In this document: positions 23,441 to 25,816 of the stretch, piece by piece | Layout: every line of letters starts with the position of its first letter | Numbering within the stretch: position 1 is the first letter of the stretch | Source of the DNA: an archaeon | GTDB lineage: Archaea > Hydrothermarchaeota > Hydrothermarchaeia > JALTZZ01 | Direction of reading: 5' to 3' | Length of the DNA stretch: 32,033 bases | Assembly: GCA_027051165.1 (NCBI GenBank) | Contig: JALTZZ010000156.1 | Span: forward strand, 1 to 32,033 | Translations under genes and position numbers: made by a program | The notes under the pieces: model-generated | Database searches by the model: none | The model's input: only the letters and a program-made list of their open reading frames with translations | Told to the model about the DNA's origin: nothing

Positions 23441-24340
23441 TTAACAAACTTTCAATACGTGCTTAAATGAAAGCTTTTTCTCAGCCATTTTCCTGCATAA
23501 TCTATTAAGTTTAACATTATTATCATTACTTCTGCTTAATTTTTTTAGATTCTTCAAGCCAGAAAATCCAAACTTCCTAACAACATTACATAATTTATTT
23601 TCCTGTCCAACACGGATAGCATCAAAAATAAACAAATATTGATGATAGTCTTTGATACAAACTCTTTTGTTTAGATACATGATGTTATATTCTTTTACTC
23701 CATAATTTCCCATGAGTACATCTCTATAAATCGTCAACATGGCAGAATTTTCGTATGATAAGAGAAAATCAATTTTACCAATGATCTCTTCTTTATGCTC
23801 TGGAACATAGCAGCCAACAAAGAATTTCTCAAAACTCTTCAATGATTTTACTAAAACATGCTCGATTTCTCCACCTCCACCTTCTAAACCAATATTTCCA
23901 ACAGCAAGGAATGATTTAATCTCTAATTTAGAAGAAACATCTGATAATATCGTTAGAGACAAAATATTGTTTTTAAAGCTACCTGCTGGTTCATTAACTA
24001 AGGAATCTCCACCTAAATCTACAGAAAAAATAACGTCAATATTATAATCATCTAAGAAATTCGTTAAACCATTATGCACGTTATCTTCTTTAGTGCAAAC
24101 TATGTAAACATCATAACCCAACATTGCCACATATTTCTCAAAAAACCTACCGCTCTTCTCACTATTTGGATAAATTCTTAGGATACCATCATATAATTTT
24201 TTACCATACTTGATTTTCCTTTCCTTACAGCCAAGAAAAGACAATACTACCGGATCTGTTACCTTTTGCAGTGGAATTAGTAGGGACAATGCACCACCAA
24301 CATCGCCTCCGCCACCTAATCCACCAACGGCAATGGTCAT
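23441..24340 (-). CDS. DUF1152 family protein of unknown function
   Basis: A 299-residue protein starting at ATG 24340, which follows GGTGGA. Family hallmarks are the N-terminal glycine-rich loop GGLGGGGDVGGALSLLIPL (about 6-24) and the block IFSVDLGGDSLVNEPAGSF (about 105-123), seen in archaeal and actinobacterial DUF1152 proteins. The glycine-rich loop suggests nucleotide or cofactor binding, but no reaction is known to me. A second glycine-rich run, NIGLEGGGGEIEH, lies near 149-161. The gene sits between two AT-rich, structured gaps, with a MITE-like element next to its promoter, so it may be a recently acquired or accessory gene. Confidence 0.75.
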   Translation of the reverse strand: MTIAVGGLGGGGDVGGALSLLIPLQKVTDPVVLSFLGCKERKIKYGKKLYDGILRIYPNSEKSGRFFEKYVAMLGYDVYIVCTKEDNVHNGLTNFLDDYNIDVIFSVDLGGDSLVNEPAGSFKNNILSLTILSDVSSKLEIKSFLAVGNIGLEGGGGEIEHVLVKSLKSFEKFFVGCYVPEHKEEIIGKIDFLLSYENSAMLTIYRDVLMGNYGVKEYNIMYLNKRVCIKDYHQYLFIFDAIRVGQENKLCNVVRKFGFSGLKNLKKLSRSNDNNVKLNRLCRKMAEKKLSFKHVLKVC

Positions 24341-24375
24341 ATATTCCACCTATTAACAATAATATTTGGGAATGA

Positions 24376-24385
24376 TGTGATAAAG
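24376..24385. repeat. 10-bp direct repeat TGTGATAAAG, left copy (putative target duplication)
   Basis: TGTGATAAAG occurs here and again at 24541-24550, immediately outside both ends of the inverted-repeat element. The next base on each side differs between copies, so the repeat is exactly 10 bases. Confidence 0.6.
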
Positions 24386-24540
24386 GAGTTTGTTGAAAAT
24401 TACGATTATGGTATGATCATAAACTATTTTTTAAATAACTATAAAACTTTTCATTAATATTGGAAATTAAGGAAAAACAAAAAGAAGGAAAACATTCCCT
24501 TACCATGGTTATGACATAACCACGATTTCTCAACAAACCC
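24386..24540. mobile_element. MITE-like non-autonomous insertion element, 155 bp
   Basis: The ends are inverted repeats: the left starts GAGTTTGTTGA, and the reverse complement of the right end starts GGGTTTGTTGA, with 10 of 11 bases matching and further gapped similarity to about base 25 (both then read through AAAT, CG and TTATG). Each end carries a subterminal palindrome: TATGATCATA at 24412-24421 and TGGTTATG-A-CATAACCA at 24506-24522. It is flanked by the 10-base direct repeats listed separately. There is no reading frame of useful size, so it could only move with a transposase from elsewhere. The IS family is not identified. The left duplication, read on the minus strand as CTTTATCACA, is TATA-like and lies where the DUF1152 promoter would be. 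Confidence 0.6.
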
Positions 24541-24550
24541 TGTGATAAAG
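24541..24550. repeat. 10-bp direct repeat TGTGATAAAG, right copy
   Basis: Second copy of the putative target duplication, directly abutting the right inverted repeat end (TCAACAAACCC). Confidence 0.6.
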
Positions 24551-24681
24551 TGCAGTTTTAATAAATATTTCCGAAAAATATTATAAACATGAAAAGAGAA
24601 TGAAGTATGAGTTTACAATGGATGCTCAAAGAAGGATAAGGTTTGGGCGTGTGTTATATTTTTCTGCAACTTAAGAACAAG
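24551..24681. other. Residual gap between MITE-like element and NSUN methyltransferase gene
   Basis: An AT-rich tract with a TATA-like AATATTATAAAC at about 24578-24589, followed by a 24-codon plus-strand frame MKYEFTMDAQRRIRFGRVLYFSAT (24600-24674) that lacks a ribosome binding site and ends against the convergent gene. It may be chance or the relic of a longer gene. Confidence 0.3.
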
Positions 24682-25791
24682 CTAAACCTTAAACTTTGCT
24701 ATGAAGAATCCTGTTGTATCCTGAATGTGCGGATGAAATCTCAGAGCACCTTCTATAAAAGCTTGGGAAGCTTCTTTAAATTCAAAATCAACAAGCTTTA
24801 AGTTTAATTCCTTTTCCGCATACTCAACAACTTCCTCGTTTTCCTCCAACGTCAATGTGCATGTGGAGTAAACAATATACTTCCTTGCAATCCTCTTAGC
24901 ACTTTTTAAAAACTGCTTCTGATATTCGCTTAACGTTTTTATCTTTTTATACGTTGTTAAATCGTAGAGCTTTGGTCTAACGCCAAGGGAGGAGCATGAA
25001 GGGTCTATAAGAACTTTGTCAGCTTTAATTTTTAAGAACCTCGAATCGGCTCTAACAACCTTTGCTCTACATCCAAGGGTGTTGAGAGTTTCTTTGAGCT
25101 TCCTTACCTTCTTCCTGCTTCTATCTACTGCTATAATATTTGCCCTATTTTTTGTTAGCTGTGCTATATAGCTCGTTTTTCCTCCCGGTGCTGCACACAT
25201 ATCGAGTATTGTCTCGTTGGGTTCTGGCTCAAGTGCGAGAACTGCTACAAGAGCGGGAAGGCTCTGCGGGTATATATAGCCCTTTAAAAAGAGCTCGCTG
25301 TCCCTAAAGCTTGGAAGTTTATAAAGAGACCTCTCAACTTTAACCACCAAACCGCTTTTTCTTCTGAGAGCTTCTTTAAAGTTCTCCACAAGCACTCCTT
25401 CTGCAACAGCAACACCGTTTATGCTTAAAACTGTTGCTTTATTGCCTTTACCTCTTAAAATCTTTAAAACTCCCGGAGCATATACATTTGCACCCATCAT
25501 TGCACTTTCAGCGGTAAACTTGTCAACATATACGAGATTTTCATGTATATCAATTTTTTCATTTCTTTCATACTCAAAAAGTATAAGTTCTTGAATGATT
25601 TTATGTTTCTTAACCCTATAGCCCATCTTTTTGAACTCCTGAAGAACAGAATCAACATCTGCTTTTAGGGTATTTACCCTTACAGTATAAAATTTATTTG
25701 GAACTGCAAGAGCCCTCAGAACGCTATCTAACTCATCTGCATAGACTCTTTTTAAAGCCCTTAAAACGTCTTCGTTGAAGAACGTTTTCAT
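24682..25791 (-). CDS. NOL1/NOP2/Sun-family tRNA/rRNA m5C methyltransferase with PUA domain
   Basis: A SAM-dependent cytosine-5 RNA methyltransferase of 369 residues (ATG 25791; an upstream in-frame TTG is less likely). A PUA domain lies in about 85-155 (VYAPGVLKILRGKGNKATVLSINGVAVAEG), placed as in the archaeal NSUN6-like enzymes that methylate C72 of tRNA. The Rossmann part has DMCAAPGGKT (197-206), motif IV DPSCSSLGVRP (Cys266; usual form DPPCSG) and YSTCTLTLEENE with catalytic Cys311. The target is likely tRNA, but rRNA cannot be excluded. Its stop faces the gap containing the MITE-like element. It follows the activase gene by 25 bases. Confidence 0.88.
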   Translation of the reverse strand: MKTFFNEDVLRALKRVYADELDSVLRALAVPNKFYTVRVNTLKADVDSVLQEFKKMGYRVKKHKIIQELILFEYERNEKIDIHENLVYVDKFTAESAMMGANVYAPGVLKILRGKGNKATVLSINGVAVAEGVLVENFKEALRRKSGLVVKVERSLYKLPSFRDSELFLKGYIYPQSLPALVAVLALEPEPNETILDMCAAPGGKTSYIAQLTKNRANIIAVDRSRKKVRKLKETLNTLGCRAKVVRADSRFLKIKADKVLIDPSCSSLGVRPKLYDLTTYKKIKTLSEYQKQFLKSAKRIARKYIVYSTCTLTLEENEEVVEYAEKELNLKLVDFEFKEASQAFIEGALRFHPHIQDTTGFFIAKFKV

Positions 25792-25816
25792 AAGAAACAA
25801 TCAGTTAAATAACGAC

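Follow-up and report, generated by a model that had tools for sequence, protein, structure and literature searches.

Does the 155-bp non-coding element (24386-24540) that lies between two genes of this archaeal contig belong to a family of mobile elements, what could have moved it, and does its arrival bear on the promoter of the DUF1152 gene beside it? The window, that is, the whole stretch of 32,033 nucleotides that was analyzed, is contig C156 of a host genome of 2,376,348 bp (2.38 Mb) in 171 contigs. Very probably, the element is a type II non-autonomous MITE, with ends recognized by an IS5-like DDE transposase acting in trans, that inserted between the NOP2-type and DUF1152 genes. The MITE would have entered the 167-bp spacer leading from the NOP2-type methyltransferase gene to the DUF1152 gene, and a staggered cut would have duplicated 9-10 bp of the target.

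The original prediction of inverted ends flanked by identical repeats matched the sequence exactly. The element begins with GAGTTTGTTGA and ends with TCAACAAACCC (= GGGTTTGTTGA), and repeat extraction reported the terminal pair as 12 nt with 92% complementarity. The left terminal inverted repeat reads GAGTTTGTTGAAAATT on the plus strand (24386-24401; family form GRGTTTGTTGAGAAAT), and the right one reads ATTTCTCAACAAACCC on the minus strand (24525-24540). On either side is the 10-bp direct repeat TGTGATAAAG, identical at 24376-24385 and 24541-24550. The window contains 171 exact 10-mer repeat pairs at a spacing of 60-1500 bp, and only the TGTGATAAAG pair has an inverted pair directly inside it. 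At 155 bp the element is well within the length expected of a MITE (under ~500 bp), and no ORF of at least 80 aa overlaps it. Two perfect palindromes had also been described, and both are there, TATGATCATA and TGGTTATG-A-CATAACCA (24506-24522, within a subterminal imperfect repeat), but they are perfect in the window copy only and carry mismatches in the other copies of a four-copy alignment. As they differ between copies, they were ruled out as conserved functional sites.

A search of the host genome revealed further copies, so the element is not without a second copy. Three are near-complete, C81:37449-37628 (180 bp), C31:8885-9065 (181 bp) and C36:54484-54647 (164 bp), and partial or decayed copies, at least four, were detected in C60 (two), C92, C126 and C144. 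The best match among the other copies reached E = 4.8e-33. When the four near-complete copies were aligned, the mean column identity was 83% and the pairwise identities were 73-87%; several short internal stretches of the C81 and C31 copies are missing from the window copy. A model of the MITE searched against the 23 genomes of the class found strong copies in the host genome only, and the matches elsewhere (E 0.03-0.09) were at the level of chance.

Target duplications were also found at other copies. The C81 copy is flanked by TTTGGTGAA (9 bp, exact) and the C36 copy by GCAGCATAG/GTAGCATAG (9 bp, one mismatch), and an apparent diverged 9-bp pair was seen by eye at C126; none was found at the ends of the C31 copy. 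The target duplication of the family is best described as 9-10 bp, and since the other copies point to 9 bp, the boundary of the window element is uncertain by one base. The C81 copy (L088:850-1029) interrupts an upstream reading frame at its stop codon and adds six codons (GFVEKS) and then a stop to this frame. When its flanks are joined, the implied empty site reads ..GGT GAA TAA by eye and the frame is closed, which gives independent support for insertion. We infer from these joined flanks an empty site for the MITE family, as distinct from the window copy. The other 22 genomes of the class lack a DUF1152 homologue and so offer no empty site for the window copy. The phylum comparison set consists of the 23 genomes of this one class, and the host is the only member of its family there. 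The identification as a MITE was thus borne out by more copies in the genome, by target duplications at other copies and by matching ends on ~0.9-kb ISs.

The link to these ISs came from the end motif TCAACAAACYC, which occurs 36 times in the genome versus 2 times for the reversed control. Many of these sites mark where an IS copy, 838-899 bp long, begins or ends. Those in C119 (899 bp), C59 (890 bp), C24 (893 bp) and C157 (838 bp) are complete end to end, those in C75 (732 bp) and C62 (304 bp) are shortened, and many others are cut by contig ends. The terminal 16 bp of the MITE are identical on the C119, C59 and C157 copies and differ by one base on the C24 copy, and the C81 MITE and the C24 IS have 28 of their first 29 bp in common. 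The four complete copies (L021, L022, L023 and L025) are near-identical, and many contigs of the assembly end inside such an IS. The interior of the MITE was without counterpart in the assembled ISs, which have the ends alone in common with it; deleting the middle of an assembled IS would therefore not yield the MITE.

The transposase frames are broken in every assembled IS copy, by a frameshift, an internal deletion or a contig end. The C119, C59 and C24 copies carry the same two frame changes, and the C157 and C75 copies have a further deletion in common; these common defects suggest that already damaged ISs went on to multiply, through recombination or with a helper acting in trans. In a protein search of the host genome, all longer transposase matches contained stops and the stop-free matches were partial, and no intact transposase of the MITE-related IS group was detected in the assembly. 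The IS ORF2 matched the NCBIfam IS5 model NF033579 at 4.7e-6, which is weak and far below the cut-off, and a 255-aa composite transposase had no Pfam match. In another genome of the class, a distant relative (L183) has an open frame of ~300 aa with 37% identity and matches NCBIfam IS5 at 4.4e-14. Judging from the sequences, the ~0.84-0.90-kb IS group is the likely parent of the MITE, because the ends of the MITE are common to it, although an element with an interior like that of the MITE was not found. Transposition would have been by cut-and-paste in trans with this group as the helper, and the MITE family may now be stranded, with the intact transposase gone. The proposed dependence on a transposase elsewhere is thus upheld in kind, but the assembly contains no intact transposase gene of the group.

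The element could instead have been moved by a different, unassembled transposase with nearly the same ends, with the damaged ~0.9-kb ISs as other passengers. We regard this as unlikely, though it is the strongest of the alternatives. It would account for ISs that lack the MITE interior, and for target duplications at the MITEs but not at the young full-length ISs: no convincing duplication was found at the full-length or shortened ISs in C119, C59, C24, C157 and C75, where assembly joins at repeats are perhaps unreliable, and the 9-10-bp signature is therefore not tied to the IS itself. The missing duplications may reflect a real property of the IS copies, recombination or an assembly artifact. 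Moreover, with many contigs ending inside ISs, intact elements could be absent from the assembly. However, the terminal identity of 16-29 bp with the ISs argues for the ~0.9-kb group, and no other matching transposon was found in the searches. When viral contigs were searched for the 17-bp ends, 3 and 11 matches came up, not one of which was accompanied by a convincing partner end or a transposase; these were judged to be chance matches.

A role of the family as a functional intergenic module (a promoter, a terminator or a processed RNA hairpin), kept as such and no longer primarily a mobile parasite, appears improbable. Consistent with such a role, the majority of copies are intergenic, often between co-directional genes, an internal AT-rich block is largely invariant across the four copies, and the minus-strand RNA of the element folds at -40.5 kcal/mol (z -4.69), better than 200 of 200 shuffles. 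Good folding is nevertheless expected of any such element, because inverted repeats fold by construction. Across the four copies, two-sided changes occurred at only 4 of the 36 predicted pairs, and in one sequence each time, so that there is little sign of selection for the RNA. Relative to the genes downstream, the copies also face either way, and an Rfam scan of the window returned no match. The idea that short repeats in AT-rich intergenic DNA fell into this pattern by chance has nothing but the low G+C of the spacer in its favor and is virtually excluded, having already been refuted by the three additional near-complete copies with their very low E values and by the target duplications at other copies. 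What the genome itself shows is the MITE family, with its shared ends, its target duplications and the damaged IS copies.

The genes on either side of the MITE are both on the minus strand. The DUF1152 assignment was confirmed by Pfam (23441-24349; PF06626, 37 bits vs a cut-off of 27). Its ORF opens at a GTG at 24349, and the likelier start is the ATG at 24340, which GGTGG precedes. With homologues missing from the other class genomes, the gene was probably gained by, or is restricted to, the host lineage. Upstream of it on the same strand is the gene of an RsmB/F (NOP2-type) RNA methyltransferase (24682-25800; PF01189, 1.5e-45). The best relatives of this methyltransferase are archaeal, and LonB is of the archaeal type, both of which point to an archaeal origin.

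The claim that the element supplied the DUF1152 promoter through a TATA-like box in the left duplication was not supported. This CTTTATCACA box lies at -45 to -36 of the ATG on the minus strand and is a weak match (6/8) to the TATA consensus; in 55 upstream regions of the host genome, with starts assigned by a crude rule, TATA matches of at least 7/8 peaked at -35 to -26. The element did not supply the box, because the box is duplicated target DNA, which the implied empty site already contains in the same form. That the insertion altered the promoter is possible: the CTTTATCACA box itself is unchanged, but its upstream context is not. A better TATA-like candidate, TTTATTAA (24558-24565, minus strand; a consensus match only), which would be at -60 from the ATG in the implied empty site, is now at -225, and the element brings AT-rich candidates of its own. 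These TATA-like matches, GTTTTATA, TATTTAAA and TTTAAAAA, face the DUF1152 gene from 24428-24447 (minus strand), at -107 to -88 from the ATG with 7/8 to the consensus, and may form an internal promoter. Consensus matches in AT-rich DNA are weak evidence of promoters. Any effect on the DUF1152 gene would be limited to a changed promoter context. We consider it doubtful that the 24428-24447 block is an archaeal promoter that replaced the displaced native TATA and drives DUF1152, with the other copies acting likewise for the genes that they precede.

Target duplications in the IS5 family are 9 bp in the IS903 subgroup and 8 bp in the ISH1 subgroup, and ISC1058 is also an IS5-family element. The ISs here resemble this family in their ~0.9-kb size and in a DDE transposase (a weak profile match), and the 9-10-bp duplications of the MITEs are near those of IS903 and ISH1, whereas the ISs here are broken and fall far below the NCBIfam cut-offs. 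Archaeal MITEs are documented but less studied than bacterial ones (PMC10969869). The closest precedent found, likened here by description, is SM3A of Sulfolobus islandicus, a MITE of 164 bp whose transposition was attributed to ISC1058; none of the three strains analyzed encodes a functional ISC1058 transposase, and SM3A was described as unable to transpose there (PMC3718332). Both are archaeal MITEs of similar length with a helper transposase that is apparently non-functional, but the lineages differ, and the copy number of the window family is low (four near-complete copies). The Correia element is a promoter-carrying bacterial MITE (reviewed in PMC10969869) that, like the window MITE, is small, intergenic, just upstream of a gene and equipped with promoter-like sequence, whereas the signals in the window are archaeal TATA-like ones predicted from the sequence. 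The window MITE group is a new and otherwise ordinary family of an already known kind of mobile element. It puts on record, for an uncultured lineage, a MITE family together with the decaying ISs linked to it. Like Sulfolobus SM3A before it, it appears to be an archaeal case in which the MITEs have outlived the transposase that moved them.

Other repeats in the genome touch on the MITE copies. In C92, an 859-bp element with MITE-like ends encloses a coiled-coil ORF of 177 aa. It was considered as a gene-carrying MITE and disfavored; one repeat nested in another is more likely, because the ORF is part of another repeat, itself multicopy and with direct repeats of its own. This coiled-coil gene, which may be a mobile cassette in its own right, occurs in many copies, in C29, C92 and other contigs (L221:1437-2245, L218:1718-2251); the C29 copy lies between direct repeats of ~90 bp that end in GCGAGAAATARAAGAGTTATAAGAG. 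Another coiled-coil family with multiple copies (MEIIEALERD...) is found at L087:139-666 and L219:2356-2796 and, in decayed form, in L218; it stops just short of the C36 MITE, on its upstream side, and likewise of the MITE-like end in C92.
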